Assembly: GCF_022842015.1 (NCBI RefSeq) | Contig: NZ_JALHQJ010000007.1 | Span: forward strand, 1-61,097 | Direction: 5' to 3' | Origin: Nitrosomonas sp. | GTDB lineage: Bacteria > Pseudomonadota > Gammaproteobacteria > Burkholderiales > Nitrosomonadaceae | Length of the DNA stretch: 61,097 bases | In this document: positions 1 through 33,718 of the stretch, piece after piece | Layout: every line of letters begins with the position of its first letter | Position numbering within the stretch: the stretch's first letter is position 1 | Program-made: the position numbers and the translations under genes | Notes under the pieces: model-generated | Seen by the model: the letters and a program-made list of their open reading frames with translations, nothing else | Database searches by the model: none | What the model was told of the DNA's origin: nothing

Positions 1-153
1 GAACCGGTGGCAGCCAACACTTCTCCTGAAAATAGAGCAAAAAATCGTCGTGTAGAGATTTTCGTGAAAGAGCCGCAACCACAACAACAGCGACAACAAG
101 AACTGCCGCAGCACCAAGATCAGCAACAATATATTCAACAACCGGCCTATTAA
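1..153 (+). CDS. OmpA/MotB-type C-terminal domain protein (5' end missing)
   Basis: Open from the first base to a TAA at 151-153, 50 residues visible. The segment NRAKNRRVEIFV is the usual end of an OmpA-like peptidoglycan-binding domain, which anchors envelope complexes to the cell wall. It is followed by a glutamine-rich tail of about 25 residues ending QQPAY. The stop lies 6 bp before the TrbN-like gene, so the two are probably co-transcribed at the end of a trb-type operon. The N-terminus lies outside the window, so membrane or lipoprotein signals cannot be judged. The domain call is good; the role in mating-pair formation is inferred from position. Confidence 0.7.
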   Translation, partial: EPVAANTSPENRAKNRRVEIFVKEPQPQQQRQQELPQHQDQQQYIQQPAY

Positions 154-159
154 TCCATA

Positions 160-600
160 ATGGATTTGCCACCCGATCAGCAAGAAAGAATCGTTTGCTC
201 AATCACGGCGGCCATAAAGTATGAAATACCGGCCAATATACTTTTGGCCGTTGCGGAAAAAGAAGGGGGAAAACCGGGGCAATGGGTGAGTAACCGCAAT
301 GGAACGCATGATGTGGGTTCAATGCAATTCAATACGGCCTACCTGGGCGATTTAGCCCGATACGGGATCACATCCAATGATGTCGCACAACCCGGTTGCT
401 ATCCCTATGATCTAGCAGCTTGGCGAATACGTCTGCATATCAAGCAAGATAAAGGCGATTTGTGGACAAAAGCGGCCAATTATCATTCGCGTACTCCAAA
501 AGTTAATGCAAAGTATCGGGCTGACTTGATGGCTAAAGCCGCTAAATGGGCGGATTGGCTGGAAAATCGTTTCATGACAGCGGACAACCAGAAAAAATAA
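160..600 (+). CDS. trbN: TrbN/VirB1-like lytic transglycosylase
   Basis: 146 residues with the fold signature of a specialised SLT-type transglycosylase. A likely catalytic glutamate sits in AVAEKEGG (about residues 30-37), followed by GTHDVGSMQFN (about 48-58), the block that lines the muramic-acid cleft in VirB1-type enzymes, and CYPYDLAAWR further on. Such enzymes open the peptidoglycan so the mating channel can be built. No clear signal peptide is visible; RP4 TrbN does have one, so the start could be further upstream or export may be atypical. It follows an OmpA-type gene by 6 bp, as expected near the end of an IncP trb operon. The family is confident; the exact symbol rests on context. 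Confidence 0.8.
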   Translation: MDLPPDQQERIVCSITAAIKYEIPANILLAVAEKEGGKPGQWVSNRNGTHDVGSMQFNTAYLGDLARYGITSNDVAQPGCYPYDLAAWRIRLHIKQDKGDLWTKAANYHSRTPKVNAKYRADLMAKAAKWADWLENRFMTADNQKK

Positions 601-664
601 GTTACTAACAAATTCCGTGGATAGAGCTGTGAATAACCGGCCTATGTCACGCAACGATAATGTT

Positions 665-682
665 ATTTAGCCGTGCCTAAAT
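665..682. promoter_or_regulatory. Inverted repeat upstream of the KfrB/ArdC gene cluster
   Basis: ATTTAG and CTAAAT arms around CCGTGC, in the 125-bp gap between trbN and the KfrB-like gene. The half sites resemble those of IncP global-regulator operators (TTTAGC/GCTAAA), but the spacing differs from the canonical KorB site. It is a candidate operator only. Confidence 0.3.
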
Positions 683-725
683 GACAGGCAAAATCCTATG
701 AATCCTTTGTGGGAATAGACCAGGA

Positions 726-1067
726 ATGAAACAGAGAATGATCGTAATGAATGGGTTTCGAATTTTGCAAAGCCACAATGGTCAGGGATGGGAAACTGTG
801 GGCACAATAAAGAAGGTTGAAAAGGGTATTGTGGCGGGTGTTTATAACCTATTTTTGTCAAAAGTAGCTGAAGCAAACAATACCGTTTATGAAGGAATCA
901 TTCTTTATATAGATAAAGAAAAAGAAATTGTTTTTCAAAAGGTAGATAAAGAATTTATCACACACAAACTGAAACCATTTAAAACTAAACCAACCATTGG
1001 CAAGAATGTTTCTATTCGGTACGACAATAACCAATTAAATCTAACCTTAGAAAATCATTGCCTATAG
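726..1067 (+). CDS. KfrB-domain-like protein, copy 1
   Basis: 113 residues. The N-terminus (MNGFRILQ), a central GVYNL and a later FQKV..EFITHKL block match the pattern of KfrB-type domains found on IncP plasmids. The window holds a second member on the minus strand at 54968-55318 with the same layout (MNGQKLVQ, PGVYNLYNA, LYQKNGSQYIKHDL), so this is a two-member plasmid family. Function is not established; KfrB-type domains occur in plasmid stability proteins and in some transfer proteins. ATG start with GGAATGA upstream. It appears to head a cluster with the small ORF and the ArdC-primase gene. The family call is by eye and moderately sure. Confidence 0.55.
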
Positions 1068-13099: not shown

Positions 13100-13101
13100 T
13101 A

Positions 13102-16732: not shown

Positions 16733-16826
16733 ATGCCTCAAGCAAAACCCTTCAAATACTCACGGTCAATTTTCACCCTAACTCCCTAATGTGTACGCCG
16801 TTGCTCAACCAGCTTGGAGCACGTTG

Positions 16827-19341: not shown

Positions 19342-21726
19342 GTGCCATTGAATGAGGCGGATACTTGTCGTGTCTATGTAACCCGCAGAATTAGGGAGGC
19401 GGGCTGGGAGCAGCATCCACATTCTATCACTGAACAAAAAACTTTTACCGATGGGCGTGTGGAGGTACGGGGTAATGTTGTTCGCCGCCGAGAACAGAAA
19501 AGAGCCGATTACCTTCTCCGCTACACTCGAGATTTTCCACTAGCCGTAGTTGAGGCAAAACCTGAATCCGATTCGCCTGGCAAAGGCATGCAGCAAGCAA
19601 AAGAATATGCCGAGATTCTTGGATTGAAGTTTGCCTATGCCACAAACGGTCCCCAGATCATTGAATTTGATTACTTGACTGGGCAAGAATCAGAGCTTAC
19701 GGCCTACCCGTCACCTGCAGAACTCTTCTCTCGACTAAAGGCTAATCATGGGATAGAAGACGAAATAGCGAATAAATTGTTGACGCCCTATTACCACATT
19801 CCTGGACATATACCGCGCTATTACCAAGAGATTGCTATCAATCGGGCCGTACAGGCTATTTTGCAAGGCAAGAAGCGCAATCTACTAACTATGGCGACCG
19901 GTACAGGTAAAACTGTGGTGGCATTTCAGATCAGCTGGAAGCTATGGAATGCTCGATGGAACCGTGAAGGTGCGCACCGTAAACCCCGTATCCTGTTTTT
20001 GGCAGATCGGAATGTCCTAATTGATGATCCAAAAGATAAAACTTTTGCTCCCTTCGGCGATGCTCGTCATAAAATCGAGGGTGAAGCAATCAAAAGTCGG
20101 GAGATGTACTTTGCCATCTACCAAGCCATTGCCAAAGATTCCCGTCGCCCCGGTCTCTATCGCGAGTATCAAAAAGACTTCTTCGATCTCATTATCGTGG
20201 ATGAGTGTCACCGTGGCAGTGCCCGAGACGATAGTAATTGGCGAGAAATTCTTGAATATTTTGAGCCAGCCTATCAATTAGGCATGACTGCCACCCCACT
20301 ACGCGAGGACAATCGCGATACTTACGAATACTTCGGCAATCCACTTTATACTTACAGCCTAAGGCAAGGGATCGAAGACGGCTTTCTTGCTCCTTACCAA
20401 GTTCACAGGGTAATCACACAGGTCGATGCTACCGGATGGAGACCCAGCAAAGGTGAAGTCGATCGTTATGGTCGGGAGATTCCCGACGGGGAATATCATA
20501 CTCGAGACTTTGAGCGCATTATTGCTTTGCGCGCCCGCACAGAGGCTATAGCTCGCCATCTTGCTAAGTTCATGGAGCGCACGGATCGTTTCGCCAAGAC
20601 CATCGTTTTTTGTGTTGATCAGGAACATGCCGACGAGATGCGGCGTGCCCTAAACAATTTCAACACCGACTTGGTGAAAAAATACCCAGACTACGTTGCT
20701 CGTGTTACTTCTGAAGAAGGCAAGGTCGGCAAGGGGCACCTGAGCCGTTTTCAGGAACTGGAGACCATCAATCCGGTCATTCTCACTACCTCACAGTTAC
20801 TGACCACGGGTGTTGATGCACCTACCTGTAAGAATGTGGTACTGGCTCGCGTTGTTAATTCCATGACCGAGTTCAAGCAAATCATCGGGCGTGGTACTCG
20901 CATGCGTGAAGATTACGGCAAAACCTGGTTCAACATCATCGACTATACAGGATCGGCCACTCAGAACTTTGCTGACCCCGATTTCGATGGTTTCCCAGAG
21001 ATCGAAGAGGAGATTACTATCGACGAAAAAGGCTATGAGACCAAAGCGGAAGTGTTAATTCAAGAAACAGAAGGAGAATTCCAAGCCGAGGATCGAAGTG
21101 AATACGGAATTGAGATAACCGCTGGTCCGGGTGAAGGTGGCGGAAAAGGTGAGCCCCGCAAGTTCTATGCGGACGGTGGTCGTGTCGAGATCGTAGCTCA
21201 TTTAGTCTACGAATTGGATGCGGAAGGCAATCAACTTCGTGTTGTGCAGTTTACCGACTATGCAGGCGAAAAGGTTCGCACTCTGTTTACCTCTGCCAAC
21301 GAACTACAAGATAGCTGGGCTGATCCACTCAAACGTGAAAAAGTGATTCTGGAGCTGGAAGAGCGAGGTATAGCATTAAAGGAACTATCGGAGGCAACGG
21401 GAAAGTTTGCCATCGATCCACTCGACTTACTTTGTCACCTCGCTTTCAATACTCCGCTACGGACAAGAAAAGAACGCGCCGACTATCTGCGCAAGAATCA
21501 GCCTGATCTATTCGACCAATATGGACTGGAGGCACGAGAGATACTCGCCGCGCTTCTCGATAAGTACACCGATTTCGGTCCCAGCCAATTCAACATTCCC
21601 GATACTTTGCAAGTACCGCCCATATCCGAACACGGTAATGTAATGGAAATCGCCAGCCTATTCGGTGGTGCAGCACAGATGAAACAAGCGGTGGATCGCC
21701 TTCAGGAAATGATCTACACCCAATAA
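19342..21726 (+). CDS. hsdR: Type I restriction enzyme R subunit
   Basis: 794 residues. The PD-(D/E)xK nuclease comes first (Asp56 in RADYLL, Glu71-Ala-Lys73 in AVVEAK), then an SF2 translocase with ATGTGKT at 185-191, DECH at 287-290, GMTATP and a motif VI region QIIGRGTRMREDYG, then the EcoEI-type C-terminal domain that docks to the methylase. In complex with HsdM and HsdS it translocates and cuts unmodified DNA. The length fits the EcoEI-like branch. GTG start at 19342 with AGGAA 6 bp upstream; the nearby ATGs run into stops. First gene of a hsdR-hsdM-hsdS operon that continues into the HipA-like and DUF3037 genes. No lesion seen. Confidence 0.93.
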   Translation: MPLNEADTCRVYVTRRIREAGWEQHPHSITEQKTFTDGRVEVRGNVVRRREQKRADYLLRYTRDFPLAVVEAKPESDSPGKGMQQAKEYAEILGLKFAYATNGPQIIEFDYLTGQESELTAYPSPAELFSRLKANHGIEDEIANKLLTPYYHIPGHIPRYYQEIAINRAVQAILQGKKRNLLTMATGTGKTVVAFQISWKLWNARWNREGAHRKPRILFLADRNVLIDDPKDKTFAPFGDARHKIEGEAIKSREMYFAIYQAIAKDSRRPGLYREYQKDFFDLIIVDECHRGSARDDSNWREILEYFEPAYQLGMTATPLREDNRDTYEYFGNPLYTYSLRQGIEDGFLAPYQVHRVITQVDATGWRPSKGEVDRYGREIPDGEYHTRDFERIIALRARTEAIARHLAKFMERTDRFAKTIVFCVDQEHADEMRRALNNFNTDLVKKYPDYVARVTSEEGKVGKGHLSRFQELETINPVILTTSQLLTTGVDAPTCKNVVLARVVNSMTEFKQIIGRGTRMREDYGKTWFNIIDYTGSATQNFADPDFDGFPEIEEEITIDEKGYETKAEVLIQETEGEFQAEDRSEYGIEITAGPGEGGGKGEPRKFYADGGRVEIVAHLVYELDAEGNQLRVVQFTDYAGEKVRTLFTSANELQDSWADPLKREKVILELEERGIALKELSEATGKFAIDPLDLLCHLAFNTPLRTRKERADYLRKNQPDLFDQYGLEAREILAALLDKYTDFGPSQFNIPDTLQVPPISEHGNVMEIASLFGGAAQMKQAVDRLQEMIYTQ

Positions 21727-21744
21727 CCGTGTACAAAAAACAGA

Positions 21745-23313
21745 ATGACAAATAAGAAAAAAATAGAACAACCTATGACAACTGCCCAACAATTGGGCAG
21801 TATCATTAAATCCGCCCGCCAGATTATGCGTAAGGATAAGGGCCTTTCCGGTGACCTAGATCGCTTGCCTATTCTGACATGGGTAATGTTTCTGAAATTT
21901 CTCGATGACCTGGAGCAGCTCCGCGAGACCGAGGCTGTGCTGAAAGGTGAAACGTTTCAACCCGCAATCAAACTGCCCTACCGTTGGCGCGACTGGGCAG
22001 CAGTGGAAGGGGGTATCACCGGTGATGAACTGATTGCCTTCATTAATCAGGAGCAGGCAATATTACCTAACGGCAACGAAGGCCCCGGTCTGTTCACCTA
22101 TCTGCGCAATCTCCAGGGTACCAATGGCGGCGATCGGCGCGACGTGATCGCAACCGTCTTCAAAGGTCTGCAAAACCGCATGCTTAATGGTTATTTGTTG
22201 CGAGATGTAATCGATAAGATCAATGGCATTCATTTCAACTCCTCTGATGAAATGCACATCCTCAGTCGCCTGTATGAAACCATGCTACGCGAGATGCGCG
22301 ATGCGGCAGGTGATTCCGGTGAATTCTATACACCTCGGCCGGTAGTACGTTTTATGGTGGAAGTGATTAATCCCAGATTAAGTGAATCCATTCTCGATCC
22401 AGCCTGCGGCACCGGGGGATTCCTAGCCGAGGCTATGAGTCATTTGGAGAAACAGTGCCACACTGTCGAAGATCGCGAAATCCTGCAAAACAACAGTCTC
22501 TATGGTGGCGAAGCCAAGCCCTTGCCCTATTTGCTGGTACAAATGAATCTATTGCTCCATGGATTGGAATACCCGCGTATTGATCCAGACAACAGTCTTC
22601 GTTTCCCACTACGCGAAATCGGCGACAAGGATCGGGTAGATATAATCTTGACCAATCCGCCTTTTGGAGGAGAAGAGGAGAAGGGCATACTCGGTAACTT
22701 TCCCGATGACATGCAAGCTACCGAAACTACACTATTGTTTCTGCAGCTTATTATGCGCAAGTTGAGGCGACCTGGGAAAGGCAGTGATCGTGGCGGGCGT
22801 GCTGCCGTGGTGGTACCCAACGGTACCTTGTTTGCAGATGGCGTCGCCGCTCGCATCAAAGAGGAATTGCTTAAGAACTACAATCTGCACACCATCGTGC
22901 GCTTGCCTGAGGGTGTTTTTGCTCCCTATACAGATATTCCCGCCAATCTGATTTTCTTTGATCGTTCCGGTTCGACCAGCGATATTTGGTTTTATCAGAT
23001 ACCACCGCCACAAGGTCGCAAGAAATACACTAAAACCAAACCTATGGAGTATGCAGAGTTCGATGTCTGTCTGACCTGGTGCATCGAACGCAATGAGAGC
23101 GCTCATGCCTGGAAGATCCACGCTGCCGATGTATTGAAATATGACACGGAGAACAAGTTAATTTCGGTCAATCTCGACATCAAGAATCCCAACAGCCTGG
23201 AAGCGCTGGAACATCGGCCACCGGATGAGTTGATTGTCGACATGTTGGAGAAGGAACGGCGAGTAATGGGGATTATGGAAGAAATTCAAGTGACGTTGGG
23301 TGTGCAGCCATGA
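21745..23313 (+). CDS. hsdM: Type I restriction-modification methylase subunit
   Basis: 522 residues. HsdM N-terminal helical domain (GSIIKSARQIMRKDKGLSGDLDRLPILTWVMFLKFLDD), then an adenine methylase with the SAM-binding DPACGTGGF at 218-226 and the catalytic NPPF at 304-307. Makes N6-methyladenine at the site chosen by HsdS. Lies 18 bp after hsdR and overlaps hsdS by the ATGA at 23310-23313. ATG 21745 is used; ATG 21775 is a possible alternative because the ribosome-binding site is weak. Confidence 0.95.
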   Translation: MTNKKKIEQPMTTAQQLGSIIKSARQIMRKDKGLSGDLDRLPILTWVMFLKFLDDLEQLRETEAVLKGETFQPAIKLPYRWRDWAAVEGGITGDELIAFINQEQAILPNGNEGPGLFTYLRNLQGTNGGDRRDVIATVFKGLQNRMLNGYLLRDVIDKINGIHFNSSDEMHILSRLYETMLREMRDAAGDSGEFYTPRPVVRFMVEVINPRLSESILDPACGTGGFLAEAMSHLEKQCHTVEDREILQNNSLYGGEAKPLPYLLVQMNLLLHGLEYPRIDPDNSLRFPLREIGDKDRVDIILTNPPFGGEEEKGILGNFPDDMQATETTLLFLQLIMRKLRRPGKGSDRGGRAAVVVPNGTLFADGVAARIKEELLKNYNLHTIVRLPEGVFAPYTDIPANLIFFDRSGSTSDIWFYQIPPPQGRKKYTKTKPMEYAEFDVCLTWCIERNESAHAWKIHAADVLKYDTENKLISVNLDIKNPNSLEALEHRPPDELIVDMLEKERRVMGIMEEIQVTLGVQP

Positions 23314-24461
23314 CGTTTGGTTGGGTAACTGTTCCGATTGGTGAAGTTGTTACACTGGTTGATAGACAAGAATCTCCGCAACCTGGAATAATCTATCGGC
23401 AGATTGGTGTTCGTCTATGGGGGGAAGGTGCATACGAACGCGAATCGATGGACGGCGCTGATACGCAGTATCAAACGCTTAATTGTGTCGAACCAGACGA
23501 CATCATCGTCAATAAAATATGGGCAAGGAATGGTAGCGTAAGCGTCGTAAACAGGACTTTAGCAGGTTGCTACTGTTCCAATGAATTTCCGCTTTATCGT
23601 CCAATCCCAGACGCACTTTATCCCAAGTGGTTTTATTGGATTACCAAGGCGCGCTGGTTCTGGAACAGTTGTGATGAAAAATCACGCGGCACAAGTGGAA
23701 AGAACAGGATTAAGCCACACAAGTTTCTTGAAATTGGCATACCGTTACCTCCTCTCGACGAACAACGCCGCATCGTCAATAAGATTGAATCCCTTGTGTC
23801 CAAGATTGATGAGACCAGACAACTGCGACAAGCGATCCAGGCTGATGCTCGGGCCCTGCTGCAAAGCGCTTTCCAGCAAGCTATCGAAGGAGCGGGATAT
23901 CGCTCCATGGCTGAAGTTGCTCCCATTGTCCGTCGCCCAGTAGTAGTCGAAATAGAGAGCGAATATCAGGAATTGGGTGTACGATCATTTGGCAAAGGCA
24001 CCTTCCACAAGCCGGTGCTCAACGGGGTTGATGTTGGCACGAAGAAACTCTACCGCATTTGCCCTGGAGATTTGGTGTTCAGCAACGTTTTTGCATGGGA
24101 GGGTGCTATCGCCGTCGTGCAGCCAGAAGATGCTGATCGAGTCGGTTCGCACCGGTTTATTACTTGTGTGGCCAAAAAAGGTATCACTACACCGGAATTT
24201 CTCTGTTTCTATTTGCTGACGGATGAAGGAATTGAAAAAGTGCGTGCAGCGTCACCGGGGGGTGCAGGGCGGAATCGCACGCTTGGCTTAAATAAATTGG
24301 AAAAAATCGAAGTTCCCATTCCACCCTCCGATAAACAACTCTGGTTTAACCGCCTCCAAACCCAGGTCATGGCCATTCAGCAGATCCAAGCCGATAACCA
24401 AGTCGAGCTTGATGCTTTACTTCCTTCTTTATTGAATAAAGCGTTCAAAGGAGAATTGTGA
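23310..24461 (+). CDS. hsdS: Type I restriction specificity subunit
   Basis: 383 residues in two target-recognition halves. The first runs to about residue 150 and closes with IPLPPLDEQRRIVNKIESLVSKIDETR, the conserved spacer helix. The second (about 200-340) closes with IPIPPSDKQLWFNRLQTQVMAIQQI. The two halves read different half sites of a split recognition sequence; the target cannot be deduced by eye. Starts inside the hsdM stop (ATGA), which enforces coupled translation. Intact, so the system should be functional. Confidence 0.93.
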   Translation: MTFGWVTVPIGEVVTLVDRQESPQPGIIYRQIGVRLWGEGAYERESMDGADTQYQTLNCVEPDDIIVNKIWARNGSVSVVNRTLAGCYCSNEFPLYRPIPDALYPKWFYWITKARWFWNSCDEKSRGTSGKNRIKPHKFLEIGIPLPPLDEQRRIVNKIESLVSKIDETRQLRQAIQADARALLQSAFQQAIEGAGYRSMAEVAPIVRRPVVVEIESEYQELGVRSFGKGTFHKPVLNGVDVGTKKLYRICPGDLVFSNVFAWEGAIAVVQPEDADRVGSHRFITCVAKKGITTPEFLCFYLLTDEGIEKVRAASPGGAGRNRTLGLNKLEKIEVPIPPSDKQLWFNRLQTQVMAIQQIQADNQVELDALLPSLLNKAFKGEL

Positions 24462-24486
24462 ATAAACAATTTAAGGTTTTTCACAT

Positions 24487-25221
24487 ATGACAGTACAAAT
24501 TGTCGAAGTTATCCGCCGTTCCGAGCAGGGCATCACACAGCCCTATATTTGTCGGGGGGACAACGATAAAGTTTATTTCGTCAAAGGAATTGGCGCCGGC
24601 CGGCGCAGTCAACTCTGCGAATGGATTGCCGGTAATTTAGGATTGGCCCTTGGTTTGCCGATTGCACCATTTGATATCGTAGAAGTACCAGAAGAATTGA
24701 TGGAATTGAACTTCACCCTCAATCTCTCTGACCTAGGATCAGGGCCTGCTTTTGGCTCCCAACGACAAGAAGTAATGGAACTCAACGTTTCTGCCGTAGA
24801 TGAGGTATCTGAATTACTTCAACAGGATGTCTTTGCATTCGATTGGTGGATACGAAACAGTGATCGTCTTTTGACGGAAAAAGGCGGAAATCCCAATTTA
24901 TTCTGGAATCCTAGAGATCAGGAATTGATAGTCATCGATCACAATCAAGCTTTTGATGCTGCATTTAATCCCGACGTTTTCAATGAGCTTCATATATTTC
25001 GTTCTCAGAGACATCGGGTTTTTGGTGACATGCTTTGCCATCAAGACTATAATCGGCGGTTCACTTTGGCCTTGAATAATTGGCCAGAAATATGCAATGG
25101 CCTACCAAAAGAATGGTTCTTTGCGGACGCAGAAATGACGGTGCCTGTGAATTTTTCATTAGGCGACGCCTATAAATTGTTAGAAGAGTACAAAAAAGAC
25201 GGCTTCTGGACTGTCCCATGA
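24487..25221 (+). CDS. HipA-like small kinase-fold protein
   Basis: 244 residues, about half the length of classical HipA. YICRGDNDKVYFVKG resembles the kinase nucleotide-binding strand pair with its lysine. LCEWIAGNLGLALGLPIAPFDIVEVPEE matches the HipA segment after it. FAFDWWIRNSDRLLTEKGGNPNLFW gives the catalytic loop (NSDR with asparagine and aspartate) and VIDHNQAFDA the metal-binding DHNQ. The HTH partner HipB is missing; instead the next gene, overlapping by ATGA, encodes DUF3037. It lies 25 bp after hsdS, so it may act with or be controlled alongside the restriction system. Kinase fold likely; target unknown. Confidence 0.75.
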   Translation: MTVQIVEVIRRSEQGITQPYICRGDNDKVYFVKGIGAGRRSQLCEWIAGNLGLALGLPIAPFDIVEVPEELMELNFTLNLSDLGSGPAFGSQRQEVMELNVSAVDEVSELLQQDVFAFDWWIRNSDRLLTEKGGNPNLFWNPRDQELIVIDHNQAFDAAFNPDVFNELHIFRSQRHRVFGDMLCHQDYNRRFTLALNNWPEICNGLPKEWFFADAEMTVPVNFSLGDAYKLLEEYKKDGFWTVP

Positions 25222-26057
25222 ATAAAATCGCCTGCCAATATACCATTGTTCGTTTTTCCCCTTTCATTGAAACGGGGGAATTTGCCAATGTGGGAATCGT
25301 ATTGATGGCTCCCAGTCAGCGCTATTTCGCCTCTAAACTAGAAACACAGCGCTATGGTCGTATCACTCGATTTTTTGAAGAGCTGGATAAAAAACTCTAT
25401 ACCCAAGCAATCCATATACTCAAAATTGAACTTGAACGTCTACATCAGGTACTGAAGGCGCATGGCTTCGATCGACGGTTTAAGGTTAATGATGTGAATT
25501 TCGCACAGCAACTCTTTGTTGAGCTCATTCGCCCACGGGAGAATATTGTCCGTTTTAGTGAACCCCGCATTATCTTGGTGGAAAATCCTAAAGAAAAACT
25601 CAATGAACTTTTTTCGTTCTATGTTGAGCGAAATTTTGTGACCAAAGAGTATATTGAAACACGTCTTGAAAAAGGTATCCGAAAGTGGTTATCTCAAGCC
25701 AGCATTGGCGAGCGTTTCCAGCGATTAGCTGTAGGTGACGATGAGTATGAGGCGATATTTCCTTTTGTCGAGCAAATTGATAATAGACCAGTAAAGATTA
25801 TCAAACCGTTAAATCTTGCTCAAGAAAAACCGAGCAAGATAATTGATCATGGAAATCTATGGCGTTCTCGAATCGAAGAACTCAAACGACGTAAGCGGCT
25901 GCCTGGAAAGGTATTATTTACTGTCAGGGGTCCGGAAGATATCGACAACAATCGATACCACGCTTATATAGATAGCATAGACAGACTGAAAGGTACCGGT
26001 GTAGAAATTGAACCTTACGAAAATAAGGAACAGATTATCGGATTTGCCCGTTCGTAA
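25218..26057 (+). CDS. DUF3037 family protein
   Basis: 279 residues. The start CQYTIVRFSPFIETGEFANVGIVLMAPSQRYFASKL is the defining block of DUF3037. The C-terminal third is basic (ELKRRKRLPGKVLF). It overlaps the HipA-like gene by 4 bp (ATGA), and HipA-like/DUF3037 neighbours form a recurrent pair. No motif suggests an enzyme; it could be the regulator, substrate or antitoxin of the kinase-fold protein. Last gene of the hsd-linked operon; after it the sequence turns into insertion-sequence debris. Confidence 0.75.
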   Translation: MNKIACQYTIVRFSPFIETGEFANVGIVLMAPSQRYFASKLETQRYGRITRFFEELDKKLYTQAIHILKIELERLHQVLKAHGFDRRFKVNDVNFAQQLFVELIRPRENIVRFSEPRIILVENPKEKLNELFSFYVERNFVTKEYIETRLEKGIRKWLSQASIGERFQRLAVGDDEYEAIFPFVEQIDNRPVKIIKPLNLAQEKPSKIIDHGNLWRSRIEELKRRKRLPGKVLFTVRGPEDIDNNRYHAYIDSIDRLKGTGVEIEPYENKEQIIGFARS

Positions 26058-26335
26058 TAGGGATTGTGGGCTCTGTTGCAAAAAATAATATTGGCCAACG
26101 CTTATCCCCTCCCATCTGATATACCTGATTATGTTGTTAGCGCGGGGTTTAAATTGACCAGGCGATATAGCGTACTCAACAGATCCGGGATGTTACTCAT
26201 TTACGCAGGAATCCTTACGGAACTCCATGTTTAACGCAGGTGTCAGGCAGTTACCCTTAACTTCCTATTCATGCGCCCACAAAAAACGACAGATTGTGCT
26301 TTATTCATACCTAAAAACCAACAAGGTGCAGAATA
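26058..26335. other. Intergenic stretch with insertion-sequence debris
   Basis: No gene seen. It begins with GGCTCTGTTGCAAAAAAT at 26069, the terminal motif shared with the 11130-11239 element, and contains GGAATCCTTACG (26209), also present at 11379. The helicase-nuclease start follows, so this is probably the seam between two defence modules that joined through mobile DNA. Confidence 0.5.
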
Positions 26336-28855
26336 ATGGATTTTTCTCAATTAGGAACGACAGCTAAGAAAGCAGCACCCGTTGAACCTATAAAATTATT
26401 TGAAAGCCTGCCTAGTCTAGAAAATACCCCAAATGATCTGTGGCGCGGGCAAGCTGAGGCTTTGACGAATTGGCACACAGTTCGAAATAGTAAAGATGTT
26501 CTGGTGTCACTTAATACTGGTGCTGGAAAAACAATTGTAGGATTGCTTATAGCTCAAAGCTTGGTTAACGAAGGTACTGAAAATGTAATTTATGTTTGCT
26601 CTACCATTGATTTGGTAAACCAAACGGCAGCTGAAGCCAGACGTATCGGCATACCTCATACAATTCGTATCAAAACAAATTTTAGCAATGATTTATTTGA
26701 AACTGCAAAATCATTCTGTATTACAACGTATCAGGCATTATTCAATGGACATAGTGTTCTTCGTCGTAAATTTTTTCCTGGAGCTGTCATATTTGATGAT
26801 GCCCATGTGGCAGAAAGCGTTTTAAGAGATGCTTTTACGGTAAGAATTGCCAGCAAAGATTATGCGGATCTTTTTAATGAAATAGCTCAATTATTTGAGC
26901 CACATTTTAAGGAATTAAAAGCACTATCAAGGTTTAAAGACAGCTTGAGTTTAGGTGAGCAGGCAACAGCGTTTGCAGCCCCGAGAGGGGTGCATCAGCG
27001 CACAGCACAACTTTTGCAACTTTTTGAAAAATACAATCTGAAAGATGATAGTAATTTAACTTATGCCTTTGAACATATAAAAGATCACATTGAAGCATGT
27101 GCTGCAATTTTTACTCGTGGAATTTTTGAGCTTGCGCCACCTTTTTTACCATCATTGGCACTAGATATTTTTGAGAGACCTATTCGAAGAGTTTATTTAT
27201 CAGCGACATTGCAATCTCAAACTGAATTCATAAGAGCCTTCGGACGGAAGCCTTCAGAGACGGTTATGCCTTCCAATGACGCTGGTAATGGCGAGCGTCT
27301 AATAATTGACGGACGTAATATTCAAGGTGGATTCTCTGCTGAATACATTAAAAAAATTGCTCAGGAAAGAAAGATAGTTATAGCTGTCCCAAGTTATTTA
27401 GCGTCTGAGAAATGGAAAGAAATATCAACGCCTCCAGCGACAGAAAATTTTTCTGAAGCTTTGAATGAGTTTCGCAAAGCAAGCAATGGTGCTTTTACCT
27501 TGGTTTCTAGAGTTGATGGCATTGATCTACCGCATGATGCATGCCGATTAATGCTTATGGAGGGCTTACCCAGTGGTACGTCTCTTATTGAGAGATATCA
27601 GTGGGAATTCTTAAAAATGAATAATGTACATGCGGCCCGCGTTGCAAATAGGTTGGCTCAATTATTTGGTCGTATAAACCGTGGAAGAAATGACTACGGG
27701 GTTTTTTTTATGGAAGGTAAAGATCTCAATATCTGGTTAGCAAAAGATCGGAATGTTTCACTGCTTCCGCCGTTATTGCAAAAACAAGTTATGTTAGGAA
27801 GATCTGTCCAAGAAGGCATGTCATTAGACAATACAAGTAAAGTATCTGATGCAATAAATTCTGTGCTAAACCGTGATGAAACATGGCTTAATTATTATGA
27901 ACGTGAAGTTAAGCTCGGAGAGCTTGATCAGAGTCAAATAGAACGAGCCGAAGTTGCTGAACCAATTATGATAGAAGCTACTCTGGCAGAATCTGAGTAT
28001 GCCGCATTTATTTGGAATGGGGATTATACTAAAGCAAGACAAGTCATGGAGAATTCTATTGATAGGGTAGCGAGCGCAGATACTCCGCTAGGAGGATGGC
28101 ATAGTGTGTGGCTTGGGGCAGCATTTGATCTTGAAGGGGATGTCAATAGTGCGGAACGTTCTTATGGTATAGCTAAATCAAGAATAGGGACTGCTATCGC
28201 TTTGCCTCAATCAAGTAATCAGAGACCAACAGTAGCAAATGAACAATCAAATTCTTTTGCTTCAAGCTTAAGAGGATATCTTGGATTTTCTAGTGGTGGA
28301 AAAGCCAATTCTGAAATTATGAAGCTTAAGAGTGAATTGAGTTTTATAGATAAGGGAACATCTAAGCAAGCAGAGGTGTCCGTACGAAAATTAGGGGAGA
28401 TTCTTGGTTTCAGCTCTACAAGACCTGATAATGACCAAGGTACTGGGCCAGATGTCTTATGGGTTGATGATGAAAGTCATATTACTATTGGCTTCGAACT
28501 AAAAACAGATAAAAATGCTCCTGCAAGATATCATAAGATCAAAGATATTGGGCAAGGACATGATCATCTTAGTTGGATTGAGCAGCAATACGTTGATCAT
28601 ATTCATTTAGGTCTTTTATATGTTGGCCCAAATGGGACTGTAGATGATAATGCAAACCCGTCTTCAATGATGGGACTTTGTCCCATAGAAGCGATGATAG
28701 TCTTAAGGGGACAGGTAATTGCTTTAATCGATGATTTGATGAAATCAACTCCCATTGAGAGGGTTGCTGCAATTGAAAAAGAAAGTATTCTTGAGAAATG
28801 GAAATTAACTTCTTTAGTTAAACAGTTATGGATAAAAGGCATGAATGATATGTAA
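26336..28855 (+). CDS. XPD-like SF2 helicase fused to PD-(D/E)xK nuclease domain
   Basis: 839 residues. Helicase core: GAGKT within TGAGKT at 61-66 (Walker A), FDDAH at 153-157 (a DEAH box with the first Glu replaced), SAT at 289-291, SRVDGIDLP at 391-399 and QLFGRINRGR at 442-451 (motif VI). The DDAH box and compact motif VI recall Rad3/XPD-like enzymes, but no four-cysteine iron-sulphur cluster is evident. Residues about 520-660 form a helical linker. The end holds a nuclease-like site: GPDVLWV with Asp706 and IGFELKTDK with Glu721 and Lys723, preceded by a conserved-looking helix. ATG 26336 lies 14 bp after an AAGG. Gene is more AT-rich than hsdRMS. A DNA-degrading defence role is inference. 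Confidence 0.75.
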   Translation: MDFSQLGTTAKKAAPVEPIKLFESLPSLENTPNDLWRGQAEALTNWHTVRNSKDVLVSLNTGAGKTIVGLLIAQSLVNEGTENVIYVCSTIDLVNQTAAEARRIGIPHTIRIKTNFSNDLFETAKSFCITTYQALFNGHSVLRRKFFPGAVIFDDAHVAESVLRDAFTVRIASKDYADLFNEIAQLFEPHFKELKALSRFKDSLSLGEQATAFAAPRGVHQRTAQLLQLFEKYNLKDDSNLTYAFEHIKDHIEACAAIFTRGIFELAPPFLPSLALDIFERPIRRVYLSATLQSQTEFIRAFGRKPSETVMPSNDAGNGERLIIDGRNIQGGFSAEYIKKIAQERKIVIAVPSYLASEKWKEISTPPATENFSEALNEFRKASNGAFTLVSRVDGIDLPHDACRLMLMEGLPSGTSLIERYQWEFLKMNNVHAARVANRLAQLFGRINRGRNDYGVFFMEGKDLNIWLAKDRNVSLLPPLLQKQVMLGRSVQEGMSLDNTSKVSDAINSVLNRDETWLNYYEREVKLGELDQSQIERAEVAEPIMIEATLAESEYAAFIWNGDYTKARQVMENSIDRVASADTPLGGWHSVWLGAAFDLEGDVNSAERSYGIAKSRIGTAIALPQSSNQRPTVANEQSNSFASSLRGYLGFSSGGKANSEIMKLKSELSFIDKGTSKQAEVSVRKLGEILGFSSTRPDNDQGTGPDVLWVDDESHITIGFELKTDKNAPARYHKIKDIGQGHDHLSWIEQQYVDHIHLGLLYVGPNGTVDDNANPSSMMGLCPIEAMIVLRGQVIALIDDLMKSTPIERVAAIEKESILEKWKLTSLVKQLWIKGMNDM

Positions 28856-28938
28856 TTGTAATAAGGGTGTGTGCTATGCATATTTGTTCAGAATTACGGT
28901 ATAAGCTTTTCTGAACAGTGAAAGGAGTAACTCAAGCT

Positions 28939-29055
28939 ATGAGCAAATATAGAACGATTGGTGAGGTTGAAGAAAAACACCTACGCAATCTTCCCGAAGA
29001 AGTAGATGACTATATTGCCGTGCTAAGCGAAATCATAAGGGATATCACGCAATGA
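28939..29055 (+). CDS. 38-residue ORF coupled to the GmrSD-like gene
   Basis: ATG 28939 with AAAGGAG 12 bp upstream; ends in TGA overlapping the next ATG (ATGA at 29052-29055). The product, MSKYRTIGEVEEKHLRNLPEEVDDYIAV then LSEIIRDITQ, resembles the first third of small helix-turn-helix antitoxin-type regulators, but the DNA-binding part is absent. It may be a trimmed regulator fused into the operon or a functional leader peptide for translational coupling. It was missed by ORF calling because of its size. The coupling is seen; the family is a guess. Confidence 0.5.
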   Translation: MSKYRTIGEVEEKHLRNLPEEVDDYIAVLSEIIRDITQ

Positions 29056-30165
29056 GGGAAATTCTCGGCAAAGCAAAAACCGTCCGCGAACTGCTCAAGG
29101 GTGTTAAGTATTCGATTGACTACTATCAGCGGGAATACAAGTGGCAGGACAAGCAAATCCGCGAGTTGGTCGATGATCTCACCGGCAAATTTCTTGAAGA
29201 ATACGATCCCAGCCATGCGCGGAATATGGTCGCGGAATATCCTCATTACTTTCTCGGTTCGATCATCATCAGCAAGAAGGAGAGTGCAAGCTATATCGTT
29301 GACGGCCAACAGCGGCTCACCAGCCTTAGCTTAATACTAATCCTACTTCGTCAGCTTCAGCAGGATCGCCCAGAAGAAGTGAACATTGATGAGCTGATTG
29401 TGTCGGAAAAGTATGGTCAGAAGTCATTCAATCTGCACGTTGATGAACGTGCACCATGCATGGATGCTCTCTTTAACGGGGATCAATTCGATCTGACCGA
29501 TCGAACAGAGTCAGTGCAGAACCTCTACCAACGCTATCAAGACTTGAACCAGTCTTTCCCTGAAGAACTGCGCGGCGAGGCGCTGCCTTACTTCATCGAC
29601 TGGCTACTGGAAAATGTCCACCTGGTCGAGATTACCGCATATTCGGATGACGACGCCTACACGATTTTCGAGACAATGAATGATCGGGGGTTATCGCTCA
29701 GCCCTACAGACATGCTCAAAGGTTACTTGTTGGCTAATATTGACGACGGCTCCAAACGCACTGTCGCTAACAATCTTTGGCGGGAACGTATCCGCGAACT
29801 GAATGAAACCGGAAAAGAGGTGGAACCAGATTGCTTTAAGGCATGGTTGCGCAGTCAGTATGCTACTAAAATTCGCGAACGGAAAAAAAACGCGAAAGCC
29901 GAGGACTTCGACCGGATTGGTACGGAATTCCATCGCTGGCTACGCGACGCAAGTAATTCCGTCGGCCTTAAGCATAGCGCCGACTTTTATCGCTTCATCG
30001 ACCGCGACTTCAATTTCTACAGCCGCCAATATCTGCGATTAACTAAAGCCTCACAGACGAAAGTCGATGGACTGGAGCATGTGCTCTACAACGCCCAACA
30101 CGGCTTCACGCTGCAATACATGCTGCTGCTCGCGCCTCTTAAGCCTGACGACAGCGAAGCAGTAG
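29052..30165 (+). pseudogene. GmrSD-type (DUF262/DUF1524) restriction protein, 5' part, split by IS3 element
   Basis: 371 codons before the insertion. DUF262 marks: IDYYQREYKW at 22-31 and DGQQRLTSL at 84-92, the GmrS-type nucleotide-binding motif. VEITAYSDDDAYTIFETMNDRGLSLSPTDMLKGYLL is the second conserved block. The reading frame then enters the IS3 element and ends at 30254 with foreign residues. Removing 30166-31497 and one copy of the GTAG duplication rejoins the frame to 31502-32211 without a shift, giving one 607-residue protein. GmrSD enzymes cut modified (glucosylated hydroxymethylcytosine) phage DNA. Start ATG 29052 is coupled to the small ORF. Confidence 0.85.
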
Positions 30166-30196
30166 TGGAGTTGTCCCCTTTTGGCGGACATTTTTT

Positions 30197-31123
30197 TCAT
30201 GGAGTCGAGAGAGTCTCGACCTGTGAAAGCGGATTGCAGTTTATCGCGATTTGATTTTTCTCATTCAGTTTTCTCTCAAAATTGTTTGGTGATAAGTATC
30301 CCAGCCTGGAATGCCTGCGAGTTGGGTTGTACCATGACTCGATCCAGGTGAATATGGCTAACCTTGCTTCAGTTTTATTTTTCCAGGAGCGCCTATCGAT
30401 CAATTCACATTCCAGGCTGGCAAAAAAGCTTTCAGCCATTGCATTGTCGTAAGCATCACCCACACTGCCCATGGAGGGATGCACACCCATTTCCCTGCAT
30501 CGCTTGCCGAATTCAACACTGGTGTATTGACTGCCCTGATCGCTGTGGTGAATCACTTTGCCCGGTTTACGAGTGATTAACGCCATGTTCAACGCACTGA
30601 TCACCAGGCTTGCTGTCATGGTTTCACCGAAAGACCAACCCACTACCTTACGGCTGAATACATCGATGACCACGGCCAGGTACAGGAACCCTGCCCAGGT
30701 AGGAATGTAAGTCATGTCCGCAACCCATAGTTGGTTGATGCTAGTTGCCTTGAAATGGCGTTGCACTAAATCCGGTGCAGGGCGGTCACGCTTATTCCGA
30801 TGAGTCGTGATCACAAAGCCTCGCCTGCGACTCACCCCTTTAATTCCAGCTTCACGCATCAACCTGCCTACGCGCTTATGATTGACCCTGACTCCACGAT
30901 CGGCTAGCTCAACGGTAATGCGGGGGCGGCCATACGTACAATCGCTTGTACGGTATATGGCCATGATCTGCTCGATCAATCGACAGTTGGTAATGGCCCG
31001 TCGGCTGGGTGTGCGTTTTGCCCAGTCATAGTAACCGCTGTGCGATACACCGAGTGTCTCGCATAGAACACGAGCCGGAAATTGGGCCCGGTTTGCCTTG
31101 ATTAATTGGTACACCTTCCCCAT
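30197..31123 (-). CDS. IS3-family transposase OrfB
   Basis: About 308 residues from ATG 31123, which overlaps the orfA stop (TGATG). Contains HTH-21 (QFPARVLCETLGVSHSGYYDW), the rve core with Asp in WVADMTYIP, Asp in IHHSDQGSQYTS and Glu in YDNAMAESFF, and the closing YNPTRRHSRLGYLSPNNFE. In this family the active enzyme is usually an OrfAB fusion made by programmed -1 frameshifting in the overlap. Its last residues read into the right of the terminal repeat. Intact. Confidence 0.92.
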   Translation of the reverse strand: MGKVYQLIKANRAQFPARVLCETLGVSHSGYYDWAKRTPSRRAITNCRLIEQIMAIYRTSDCTYGRPRITVELADRGVRVNHKRVGRLMREAGIKGVSRRRGFVITTHRNKRDRPAPDLVQRHFKATSINQLWVADMTYIPTWAGFLYLAVVIDVFSRKVVGWSFGETMTASLVISALNMALITRKPGKVIHHSDQGSQYTSVEFGKRCREMGVHPSMGSVGDAYDNAMAESFFASLECELIDRRSWKNKTEARLAIFTWIESWYNPTRRHSRLGYLSPNNFERKLNEKNQIAINCNPLSQVETLSTP

Positions 31124-31443
31124 CAATCCTTGTTGTTTGCAAACCAGGCCGTAGCCTTTGCCAATATGTCACGCTCCATCTCCACACGCTTGAGCTTCTT
31201 ACGCAATTCCAGCAGTTCCTGCCGTTCGTTGGCACTCAAGGAAGCAACACTCGATGTCGCAGCGAAAGCAATTGCCTGGCTTGATCTAATTGGTACACCT
31301 GCTGCTCGACACCAGGTTTGTATCGAAGTGTAGTGGCATCCAAATTCCTTGGATAATTGCTTGGGGCATTTGCCTAATGCTACCAATTCCACCATCTGCT
31401 GACGAAACTCAGGTGGGTAAGCAGGTTTGTAGTTTTGTGTCAT
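31123..31443 (-). CDS. IS3-family transposase OrfA
   Basis: 106 residues: a helix-turn-helix (YPPEFRQQMVELVALGKCPKQLSKEFGCHYTSIQTWCRAA) followed by a leucine zipper-like coiled coil (LSANERQELLELRKKLKRVEMERDILAKATAWFA). It binds the IS ends and provides the N-terminus of the OrfAB transposase. ATG at 31443 has AGGAG-type sequence upstream (GGAGAAGA). Confidence 0.92.
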   Translation of the reverse strand: MTQNYKPAYPPEFRQQMVELVALGKCPKQLSKEFGCHYTSIQTWCRAAGVPIRSSQAIAFAATSSVASLSANERQELLELRKKLKRVEMERDILAKATAWFANNKD

Positions 31444-31497
31444 ATTTCTTCTCCTTTAAACAGAACATAATGTGTCCGTTCAAAGGGGGCAACTCCA

Positions 31498-32211
31498 GTA
31501 GTGAATCAGAAACTCCGCCTCGTTGGCCGCTTCATCGACATTTTGCTTACTTGGCGGTTGTGGAATTTCCGTAGCATTGCTTATTCGACCATGCAGTATG
31601 CCATGTTCATCGTTATGCGCGACATTCGCGGACTTGCACTTGAACCGCTTGCCCACAAGTTGCATGACGTGCTTGCCAAGGAAACAGAGACATTCGCTAG
31701 TAACGACCGGCTAAGAGCCCATCAGCAGAATCGTTACTCATTACATCGGATTCTTGCCAGACTTACAGATTATGTGGAGACGCAATCAGGATTGCCTTCA
31801 CGCTATCTTGACTATATAAGTGAAGGCAAGGGGCGCTACGAAGTAGAACACATTTGGGCAGATCATCCAAAACGCCATATGGATGAATTCGGACACCCAG
31901 CTGATTTCGCAGAACATCGCAATCGTATCGGTGGGCTGTTACTTTTGCCGAAAAGCTTCAACGCGAGCTACGGCGACCTAACTTACGAAGAAAAGCTCCC
32001 GCACTACAACACACAGAATCTATTGAGCCGTTCGTTACATCCGCAGTGTTACGAACATAATCCTGGCTTCCGCCACTTCATGCAGGAAAGCAATCTATTG
32101 TTCAAACCACATTCGCAATTTAAGAAGACCGACATTGAGGAGCGTGGTGTTCTCTATAGAGAGATTGCTGAGCGCATTTGGAATCCAGATAATCTGTTGC
32201 TGCCTCATTAA
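31498..32211 (+). pseudogene. GmrSD-type (DUF262/DUF1524) restriction protein, 3' part
   Basis: 237 codons in the same frame as 29052-30165, separated only by the IS3 element. The GTG at 31501 that opens the frame is formed from the target duplication and is not a real start. YEVEHIWADHPKR is the DUF1524 His-Asn/His-type nuclease block (the GmrD half), followed by AEHRNRIGGLLLLPKSFNASYGDLTYEEKL, which is standard for the family. A separate C-terminal polypeptide is not expected to be made well, as no ribosome-binding site is near. Precise excision of the IS would restore the enzyme. Confidence 0.85.
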
Positions 32212-32222
32212 ATCCCAATCTT

Positions 32223-32248
32223 GGGCTAAATCCTATAAAGGTACGTAA
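32223..32248 (+). repeat. Degenerate Tn3-type terminus
   Basis: GGGCTAAATCCTATAAAGG then TACGTAA: 24 of 26 bases match the transposon terminus at 5514/9206, after which similarity stops. It lies 12 bp after the GmrSD stop, at the right edge of the defence island, in the same orientation as the 16682 copy. Confidence 0.7.
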
Positions 32249-32270
32249 GGCGACATACAATTAAGAATAA

Positions 32271-32612
32271 CTACAAATCAAATACAAGTGTGAAAGCTTG
32301 TTTGATCGATTGCAAATATTCACTCTCAAGCCTACCTTGCTTTTTGCCAATTCGAGAGATATCAACTGCACGTAATTGCTTGAGATTTATATGACGATCT
32401 TTATCCAATCCGTTATTACTGGTTGGCGTTAGATTTACTGCAAATGGCCAGGATTTATGGTTAGGTAGCATCGGTGCCACAACCAGGGTTTTTGATTGGA
32501 TATTCACAAGGTCGCTTTGAACAATCACGCACGGTCTTAGCTTTTTAGTTTCCGTACCCTTGGTTGGCTCCAGGTCAACCCAATAAATATCTAGTCGCTT
32601 AAACTCAGTCAT
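32271..32612 (-). CDS. MazF/PemK-type mRNA interferase toxin
   Basis: 113 residues from ATG 32612 (MTEFKRLDIYWVDLEPTKGTE). Family marks: DIYWVDLEPTKGTETKKLRPCVIVQSD, LVVAPML and LKQLRAVDISRIGKK (the conserved Q-x-R-x-D-x-R region). Cuts single-stranded RNA and stalls growth when free. Overlaps the antitoxin gene by 8 bp, so the two are coupled. An in-frame upstream ATG (32624) would overlap more and was not preferred. Confidence 0.9.
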   Translation of the reverse strand: MTEFKRLDIYWVDLEPTKGTETKKLRPCVIVQSDLVNIQSKTLVVAPMLPNHKSWPFAVNLTPTSNNGLDKDRHINLKQLRAVDISRIGKKQGRLESEYLQSIKQAFTLVFDL

Positions 32613-32835
32613 TTGAGAGACCATCGGACAGAGTTGTATCCCATTCTTTTAGTTCTTTCTGATAGTCAGAATCCTGAGCTTCCTCCTGATTTGCCTTGAG
32701 TAAAGCTTGCTTGAGATAGTTTTTGCGTTCCTGGTTCAAAAGCTCGTTGATATAAGCACTACGATTATCACCTGCAATATTATTCAGAAATGCAAAACTT
32801 TCATCATCCAGAGTAATGGTCGTTCTATGTGTCAT
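32605..32835 (-). CDS. MazE-like ribbon-helix-helix antitoxin
   Basis: 76 residues. TTITLDDESFAFLNNIAGDNRSAYINELLNQER is a ribbon-helix-helix DNA-binding domain; the acidic, flexible C-terminus (EEAQDSDYQKELKEWDTTLSDGLSND) would wrap and block the toxin. First gene of a two-gene operon with the MazF-like toxin. A perfect 28-bp palindrome 28 bp upstream of the start (32863-32890) is its probable operator. Confidence 0.88.
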   Translation of the reverse strand: MTHRTTITLDDESFAFLNNIAGDNRSAYINELLNQERKNYLKQALLKANQEEAQDSDYQKELKEWDTTLSDGLSND

Positions 32836-32862
32836 ATAATTCTCACACTATTTATAAAAAAT

Positions 32863-32890
32863 ATATATCATACTATATAGTATGATATAT
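32863..32890. promoter_or_regulatory. Perfect 28-bp palindrome, probable mazEF operator
   Basis: Each 14-base arm is ATATATCATACTAT and its complement, with no spacer and no mismatch. Lies directly before the MazE-like gene. Fits a ribbon-helix-helix antitoxin binding site. Confidence 0.75.
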
Positions 32891-32939
32891 AAATACTCCA
32901 TCTAATATTTCATGTAAAAATACTTTTTGATAAGTCTCT

Positions 32940-32977
32940 ACTCTACTATTGATAAAATATGTTATCAATAGTAGAGT
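32940..32977. promoter_or_regulatory. Perfect inverted repeat with 16-bp arms
   Basis: Arms ACTCTACTATTGATAA and TTATCAATAGTAGAGT around AATATG. Located midway between the two divergent toxin-antitoxin operons, so it may be an operator or a shared bidirectional terminator; no T tract of note. Confidence 0.65.
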
Positions 32978-33031
32978 GATGCTACAATTTAGGAAGGTTG
33001 AAATATTTTTTGCTTTATTAAATTTCCTTGA

Positions 33032-33048
33032 GTAGGATATTATCCTAC
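33032..33048. promoter_or_regulatory. Palindrome upstream of parD, probable operator
   Basis: GTAGGATA-T-TATCCTAC, perfect about its central base, 38 bp before the parD start. Placement suits autorepression by ParD/ParDE. Confidence 0.65.
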
Positions 33049-33086
33049 CATTGGAAGGTGTTAGAAACATACATAGGAAACAAAAA

Positions 33087-33383
33087 ATGAAGCGCACCGA
33101 TAAAGCAGAAAAAATCAGCATTACACTTCCACCGGATATGCTGAATATTATTAGGGAAAAAGTGAAGGATGGCGCTTACGCTTCCACAAGTGAGGTTATT
33201 CGTGAAGCGATGCGTTTATGGCAAAGACAGGAAGAAGAACATCTTGCGAGAATTGCTTCCATTCGAGCGCGTCTGGAGCAATCGGCACACAGTGGCGAAC
33301 CTGTTTTGCTGGATACGGCCTTTGAAAAGCTAGAACAACTTCATCAACAACGGATAAGCGCACTAGGTCATGAAAAGCTATGA
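33087..33383 (+). CDS. parD: ParD-type ribbon-helix-helix antitoxin
   Basis: 98 residues from ATG 33087 with AGGAAA 7 bp upstream (the upstream ATG 33051 lies within the regulatory region). KISITLPPDMLNIIREKVKDGAYASTSEVIREAMRLWQRQEEE is the classic ParD N-terminal domain; the C-terminus is charged and binds ParE. Overlaps parE by 14 bp. Forms an operon with parE and the tyrosine recombinase. Confidence 0.9.
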   Translation: MKRTDKAEKISITLPPDMLNIIREKVKDGAYASTSEVIREAMRLWQRQEEEHLARIASIRARLEQSAHSGEPVLLDTAFEKLEQLHQQRISALGHEKL

Positions 33384-33717
33384 GGTGTATCTAACACCCG
33401 ATGCCATACAAGACCTCACTGATATTTATGGATATATAGCTGCAAAGAGCGGACTTCCTGAAGTCGCGTGGGCATATATAGAGAAATTACGCCAAAAGTG
33501 TCATGACCTTAAAACAATACCTTTGATTGGACAACAGCGCGATGATTTGCGCAAGAATCTCAGAATCGTTGCCATTGATAAAAACGCGATTGCAGCTTTT
33601 GAGGTTATTGAGGATAAACAAATCGTCACTATTCTTAATATTTTTTATGGTGGCCGAGATTATGAAGCGATTATGGGTAGTGAAACACCGCATATAAATG
33701 ATGGGCTAGATAGATAA
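33370..33717 (+). CDS. parE: ParE/RelE-superfamily toxin
   Basis: 115 residues: YEVYLTPDAIQDLTDIYGYIAAKSGLPEVAWAYIEKLRQKCHDLKTIPLIGQQRDDLRKNLRIVAIDKNAIAAFEVIEDKQIVTILNIFYGGRDY follows the ParE plan, ending in the FYGGRDYE block. ParE toxins poison DNA gyrase. Stop at 33715-33717, one base before the recombinase ATG at 33719. Confidence 0.9.
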   Translation: MKSYEVYLTPDAIQDLTDIYGYIAAKSGLPEVAWAYIEKLRQKCHDLKTIPLIGQQRDDLRKNLRIVAIDKNAIAAFEVIEDKQIVTILNIFYGGRDYEAIMGSETPHINDGLDR

Positions 33718-33718
33718 C

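Follow-up and report, generated by a model that had tools for sequence, protein, structure and literature searches.

An Hna-family helicase-nuclease gene on an apparent conjugative element of Nitrosomonas

Introduction

Hna (helicase-nuclease abortive infection) is a named and structurally solved anti-phage system. The protein from Sinorhizobium meliloti is a 3′-5′ exonuclease of single-stranded DNA (ssDNA), and its ATP-binding helicase part restrains the nuclease until a phage protein releases it, causing abortive infection (PMC13381803). According to a second report, the S. meliloti gene is sufficient by itself to restore resistance to phage (PMC12445080), and a third lists Hna among helicase-bearing systems (PMC12278908). 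Here we describe a gene from a Nitrosomonas sp. contig of 61,097 nucleotides (assembly GCF_022842015.1, contig NZ_JALHQJ010000007.1), which we analyzed whole and refer to as the window. Its 839-residue product is, judged by sequence and predicted fold, a homologue of Hna.

A first-pass annotation of the window had suspected an anti-phage role for this protein but could attach it to no named defence system. The predicted role seems right to us, whereas the family does have a name: sequence, profile and fold matches identify it as Hna, PADLOC candidate PDC-S28. We therefore reject the idea of a new, unnamed system. The assignment settles an unnamed helicase-nuclease as Hna and ties a provisional PADLOC label to it. 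We conclude that the gene is very probably a single-gene, Hna-type abortive-infection defence on an apparent conjugative element. Taken alone, it is an unremarkable defence gene that has moved horizontally. It also belongs to a large clade that carries other residues at both regulatory sites known from S. meliloti Hna, which makes the clade a direct test case for the generality of the published ATP-lock model.

Domain architecture and family assignment

The hna-family gene occupies 26336..28855 on the plus strand, and its reading frame is unbroken. It encodes a superfamily 2 (SF2) helicase part (residues 34-470; 26435..27745), a helical linker (471-660; 27746..28315) and a PD-(D/E)xK nuclease domain (661-839; 28316..28852) containing P705-D706, E721 and K723. 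Within the helicase part lie Walker A, TGAGKT (61-66; 26516..26533), motif II, FDDAH (153-157; 26792..26806), and motif VI, QLFGRINRGR (442-451; 27659..27688), all on the same strand. Pfam assigns ResIII/DEAD to residues 38-161 and Helicase_C_2 to 357-459. It finds no family in the C-terminal half, and neither GmrSD_N nor GmrSD_C in this protein; both of those domains sit in a split neighbouring gene described below. When residues 640-839 were modelled alone, the predicted local distance difference test score (pLDDT) was 96.1, and the helix, strands, helix, strand order is compatible with a PD-(D/E)xK core.

The Fe-S (iron-sulphur) cluster of DinG and XPD is bound by four cysteines between Walker A and motif II. 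The window protein has five cysteines in all (88, 128, 255, 403 and 782), and only C403 is invariant among 60 aligned family members, so a four-cysteine set of this type is absent; the stretch from Walker A to motif II contains just C88 and C128. The first-pass annotation had described a helicase of XPD type joined to a PD-(D/E)xK nuclease, devoid of Fe-S cysteines, with motifs at T61-G-A-G-K65-T66, F153-D-D-A-H157, Q442-R451, D706, E721 and K723. Each of these points is borne out, including the nuclease fold of the C-terminal region, for which the nearest solved structures to the predicted model are Hna, R.BspD6I/Nt.BspD6I, FokI and HindIII.

Several comparisons lead to Hna. A phmmer search of the Protein Data Bank (PDB) returned S. 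meliloti Hna (10uj, 9yhn and 9ykj) at E 1.1e-52 over residues 5-754, and the next match was yeast Rad3/XPD at E 5.6e-4. The two PADLOC models for PDC-S28 (PDLC04987 and PDLC04986) score 1118 and 509 bits for the window protein and 400 and 1020 bits for Hna of S. meliloti 1021 (845 residues). Because both models score both proteins, we place them in one family. Our literature search found no paper carrying both "Hna" and "PDC-S28". According to PMC11811056, whose main text does not use the word Hna, PDC-S28 is one of several candidates whose proteins also occur in systems that DefenseFinder names otherwise.

The predicted fold agrees with this assignment. A full-length AlphaFold 2 (AF2) model was built from 28 aligned sequences (pLDDT 86.1; predicted template modelling score 0.70). 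Searched with Foldseek, it matched 9yhn ("Hna Monomer") best, at E 2.1e-42, with the first non-Hna chain at 2.8e-14. In VIA-align, 9yhn superposed with Z 35.0 over 737 residues (model 16..839; root-mean-square deviation, rmsd, 9.2) and 9ykj_B ("Hna Dimer") with Z 26.9. The best non-Hna chain among the matches listed was DinG (Z 17.9), whose alignment ended at residue 501. For the modelled nuclease domain alone, 9yhn again led (Z 20.3, 193 residues, rmsd 2.6), and R.BspD6I/Nt.BspD6I, FokI and HindIII came next with Z values no higher than 10.3.

Predicted function and regulation

The ATPase and nuclease residues of the window protein are intact. All 60 family members keep Walker A T61, G62, G64 and K65, the DD of motif II, Q442, G445, R446 and R449 of motif VI, and Q39. 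In the nuclease, P705 is kept in 58, D706 in 60, E721 in 59 and K723 in 59 of the 60. These four positions align with P712, D713, E727 and K729 of S. meliloti Hna. Mutants of that protein at the positions matching P705, D706, E721, K723 and Q39 lost nuclease or ATPase activity or had it reduced (PMC13381803).

The window protein is likely a stand-alone abortive-infection exonuclease that digests ssDNA 3′ to 5′ when a phage trigger releases it. We infer the activity, the direction of digestion, inhibition by ATP, the trigger and the abortive outcome as follows. In the uninfected cell, the ATP-bound helicase part would keep the nuclease part inactive. Upon infection, a phage factor would release the nuclease, which would then degrade ssDNA from the 3′ end. 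Phage replication would fail, and the cell would die or stall before phage release. In the window clade, the lock and the trigger may differ from those of S. meliloti Hna, as the known regulatory contacts are different.

Those contacts are among the points that weigh against this proposal. In S. meliloti Hna, R36 contacts ATP, and T30, D31 and P34 form the dimer loop (PMC13381803). They align with W36 and with E29, N30 and D34 in the window protein, although the loop alignment is less sure because the window loop is one residue longer. Identity with S. meliloti Hna is also low, at 21% overall, 24% in the helicase part (24.4%), 17% in the linker (16.9%) and 19% in the nuclease. The high rmsd of the whole-chain superposition on 9yhn leaves the domain arrangement unconfirmed. 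Most genes neighbouring the homologues match no recognised defence family. Finally, to our knowledge, no member of the window clade has been tested for defence.

Across the 60 family members, R36 occurs in 23 and P34 in 12. Because they vary within the family, R36 and the dimer loop do not define it. The clade with S. meliloti Hna has R36 in 21 of 28 members. In the window clade, W36 and G38 are each found in 27 of 27 members and N33 and D34 each in 24 of 27, the loop reading mostly NDLW.GQ. Since R36 and the dimer-loop residues differ, the ATP lock itself may differ in this clade. It is possible, though we would lean against it at present, that the clade forms a second functional Hna branch, in which the nuclease is held and released by contacts other than R36-ATP and the T30/D31/P34 loop, perhaps with a different phage trigger.

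The same replacements could instead point to an Hna relative with no defence role, or with wholly different regulation, serving for example in plasmid competition. This alternative, which partly overlaps with the defence proposal, would account for the unshared R36 and T30/D31/P34 and would suit a gene that is often plasmid-borne. However, the ATPase and nuclease residues are kept and the frame is open, and within the clade the substitutes are conserved in their turn, as W36 and G38 show, which points to function. We regard this alternative as unlikely and keep to an Hna-type defence gene.

Family relationships and distribution

To place the window protein, we collected 73 proteins of 700-1000 residues and dropped 13 that were more than 90% identical to others, leaving 60. 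Loci L001, L006-L011 and L092 were skipped (the window's own gene, fragments and other helicases), and the length limits excluded L035, L043, L044, L047, L048, L052, L053, L055 and L056, which are broken or cut-off genes; L091, whose match may have come from a second protein in the query, also fell outside these limits. In a quick, midpoint-rooted tree of the 60, the window protein falls in a 27-row clade with SH-aLRT support of 100. S. meliloti Hna falls in the adjacent clade of 28 rows, and five rows lie outside both. The nearest relatives are 58-60% identical, belong to other classes or families and are partly plasmid-borne: a Kordiimonadaceae metagenome-assembled genome, Gluconacetobacter, Xanthobacter, Brevundimonas, Devosia, and plasmids of Janthinobacterium lividum and Swingsia samuiensis.

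The family occurs patchily. At E < 1e-40, matches were found in 5 of 85 genomes of the genus, 5 of 399 of the order, 4 of 369 of the class and 6 of 398 of the phylum, the window's own genome being counted each time. Relaxing the threshold to E 0.001 gives 5, 9, 6 and 22 genomes, respectively, tallies that include short matches to other helicases. Hna has been reported at about 2% (PMC13381803), and our sampled frequencies fit. Within the genus, the four other genomes with a family member carry five genes (one genome has two), all outside the window clade. The genome with two appears to be that of Nitrosomonas sp. sh817, as one of its hits lies at almost the position of the gene on the sh817 plasmid and is more than 90% identical to it. 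Of 72,556 plasmid records, 195 have a match that spans 80% of the protein or more. A single-protein scan of viral contigs gave three pattern matches and no relative.

Two further observations concern the family. Lactococcus plasmid pMRC01, typed as conjugative, carries an hna-family gene (L019, 3959-6493) from the same clade as S. meliloti Hna. At L035, L044, L047, L048, L052 and L055, the homologue is seemingly broken by stops or frameshifts, its open frame being shorter than the tblastn match; draft-sequence errors may explain some of this. Seemingly broken copies would fit a costly gene.

Genes neighbouring the homologues

We surveyed gene neighbourhoods at 33 loci found with a clade profile, the window included, which together hold 550 neighbour ORFs (open reading frames); six of the nine broken or cut-off loci were kept. 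Only one neighbour family, uvrB, lies near more than three loci (5 of 33). At L039, L044, L045, L048 and L049, uvrB and the hna-family gene are about 230 bp apart or less, perhaps marking an insertion hot spot in Alphaproteobacteria.

We also scanned the nearest 148 of 342 eligible neighbour ORFs, drawn from 30 homologue loci, against family libraries. As controls we used 138 ORFs from one fixed position in each of 12 genomes, which were not matched for plasmids or islands. At E 1e-20, PADLOC found 14 families among the neighbours, one member each, compared with 2 families (4 hits) in the controls; because hits were counted per family, the 14 may represent fewer than 14 ORFs. Pfam assigned uvrB domains to 5 neighbours, resolvase to 4, HATPase_c_3 to 4, phage integrase to 2 and Shedu SduA_C to 2. 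Defence and mobile genes are thus in weak excess near the homologues, most neighbours being unrecognised, a picture that neither clearly bears out nor contradicts the view that homologues lie mainly outside defence islands.

The proximity to uvrB raises the question of whether the protein is a DinG/ExoDinG- or XPD-like DNA-repair enzyme with no part in defence. DinG and XPD are also its best fold matches after Hna, and residues 129-459 align with the PADLOC typeIV_DinG model (E 2.1e-13). Yet the margin between Hna and DinG is wide (Z 35.0 versus 17.9), and the Fe-S cysteine set is missing. The patchy occurrence in the genus, order, class and phylum samples and the carriage on plasmids also speak against a repair enzyme, which we consider quite improbable. 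The Hna-type defence reading is the one we carry forward.

In a broader tblastn search (E 1e-3), we compared 88 loci, a few of which are not hna loci and many of which have flanks of only about 1.5 kb. The first-pass annotation had proposed looking for co-occurrence of homologues with GmrSD, HipA-like and hsd genes. HipA_2, DUF3037, GmrSD and a 38-residue ORF that follows hna occur in the window (L001) and at none of the other 87 loci. Relatives of hsd genes appear at two other loci: HsdM and HsdS near L024 and HsdS near L004.

Genomic setting

The window encodes a relaxase, a coupling protein, a VirB11-like ATPase, ParB and a ParA/VirC1-like protein, and therefore probably belongs to a conjugative plasmid or element. 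Its two ends share no repeat that would indicate circularity. The mobile surroundings noted in the first-pass annotation are real, and so are the defence-related neighbours that it named. Upstream on the plus strand are type I restriction genes hsdR, hsdM and hsdS (19342..24461) and a HipA_2 and DUF3037 pair (24487..26057), which matches PADLOC PDC-M66A/B and whose genes overlap by 4 bp. PADLOC and Pfam also confirm GmrSD downstream; that gene, however, is not whole.

GmrSD is split by an insertion sequence. Its N-terminal part (29052..30167) and C-terminal part (31501..32211) lie on the plus strand, on either side of a two-ORF transposase on the minus strand (30168..31495) that is flanked by two copies of an 8-bp direct repeat, CAGTAGTG, at 30160 and 31496. 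A whole GmrSD from a Rhodococcus plasmid, 58-59% identical, aligns over residues 6-381 before and 371-612 after the insertion. We take the insertion sequence to be of IS3 type.

Between hna and GmrSD lies the 38-residue ORF (28939..29055, plus strand), whose end runs past the GmrSD start at 29052. Over its first 29 residues it shares 72% identity with a Leptolyngbya plasmid protein of 72 residues (E 5e-6); over residues 3-31, it shares 48% with an antidote protein from Pseudanabaena (E 0.07). By itself the ORF matches no family in Pfam or NCBIfam, whereas the Leptolyngbya and Pseudanabaena proteins match dnstrm_HI1420 (PF21716) at E 1.3e-6 and 7.3e-16, respectively. The DNA match to Leptolyngbya covers 28919-29022 and then ends. 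With E values up to 10 allowed, 2 of 72,556 plasmid records gave a match to the ORF, and its sole match in 399 order genomes at E 0.001 was itself. These resemblances mark it most plausibly as the N-terminal remnant of an addiction-module antidote (antitoxin) gene of dnstrm_HI1420 type, truncated at the GmrSD junction; on that reading, the two frames would overlap at the GmrSD start codon only by chance of how the junction formed. The suggestion that it belongs to hna or to GmrSD is not supported, and we reject it as a small partner protein given its antidote-like start and near-absence elsewhere.

Base composition also separates hna from some of its neighbours. G+C is 0.388 in hna and in the gap holding the 38-residue ORF, 0.48-0.49 in hsdRMS, and 0.494 and 0.472 in the two GmrSD parts, so hna probably arrived separately from hsdRMS and GmrSD. 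With 0.442 for HipA_2 and 0.411 for DUF3037, G+C says little about hna and that pair.

That hna forms a multi-gene defence system together with HipA_2-DUF3037, the 38-residue ORF and/or GmrSD is highly improbable. The candidates adjoin on one strand and the G+C of DUF3037 is not far from that of hna, but hna differs from hsdRMS and GmrSD (0.47-0.49), none of the four partners was found by tblastn at the other 87 loci (many with short flanks), uvrB aside no family neighbours more than three of the 33, GmrSD is split, and the ORF resembles a truncated antitoxin. We therefore reject a functional link between hna and any of these neighbours and retain the single-gene reading.

Upstream of hna, a terminal repeat, GGCTCTGTTGCAAA, remains as a relic at 26069..26082 (plus strand). 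It has four sites with at most one mismatch in the window, compared with 0.02 expected by chance, and we take it to be of IS6-family type. A DNA search of plasmids with the stretch upstream of hna returned only pieces of 37-54 bp, in four records. One 37-bp stretch (window 26181-26217) is identical, in reverse, to L015 3209-3245 on a Nitrosomonas sp. sh817 plasmid, where it precedes a different hna-family gene by about 0.9 kb; plasmids of Methylobacter and Methylomonas have similar pieces. A promoter and terminator scan gave 4 promoter-like sites, compared with 8.9 in shuffles, and 2 terminator-like sites, compared with 1.8; Rfam had no match in 16000-34000.

Elsewhere in the window, a minus-strand protein at 16827-17558 matches PADLOC candidate PDC-S31 at E 7e-86. 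A cytochrome P460 gene (PF16694) precedes another gene that, judged by eye, resembles it (12482-13698). The ORF at 56814-57890, which we took for a replication protein, matches no Pfam family.

Relation to described systems

Hachiman (HamAB), Nhi and AbpAB resemble the window protein in combining a helicase with a nuclease, and phage single-stranded DNA-binding protein (SSB) is reported to stimulate all three as well as Hna (PMC13381803). They nevertheless belong to other families, and the PADLOC HamB matches to the window protein are short and weak (best E 4.7e-5).

DinG, ExoDinG and XPD share its helicase fold, with Z values of 15-18. These families as a rule have an Fe-S cluster (PMC13381803), whereas the window protein lacks the cysteine set. 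Among the matches listed, moreover, their alignments end at or before residue 522, leaving the nuclease outside.

PDC-S28 matches the protein at full length with 1118 bits; we found no difference from it, and this provisional label scores both clades. S. meliloti Hna (SMa2245 on pSymA; PDB 9yhn, 9ykj and 10uj; PMC13381803, PMC12445080) differs in showing 21% identity, in belonging to a separate clade, and in dimer-loop residues and an R36 that the window protein does not have in common with it. The two are alike in length (845 and 839 residues), in the order helicase, linker, nuclease, in fold, in their ATPase and nuclease residues, in the absence of an Fe-S cluster, and in a plasmid-type setting; the window gene, too, probably acts as a single gene.

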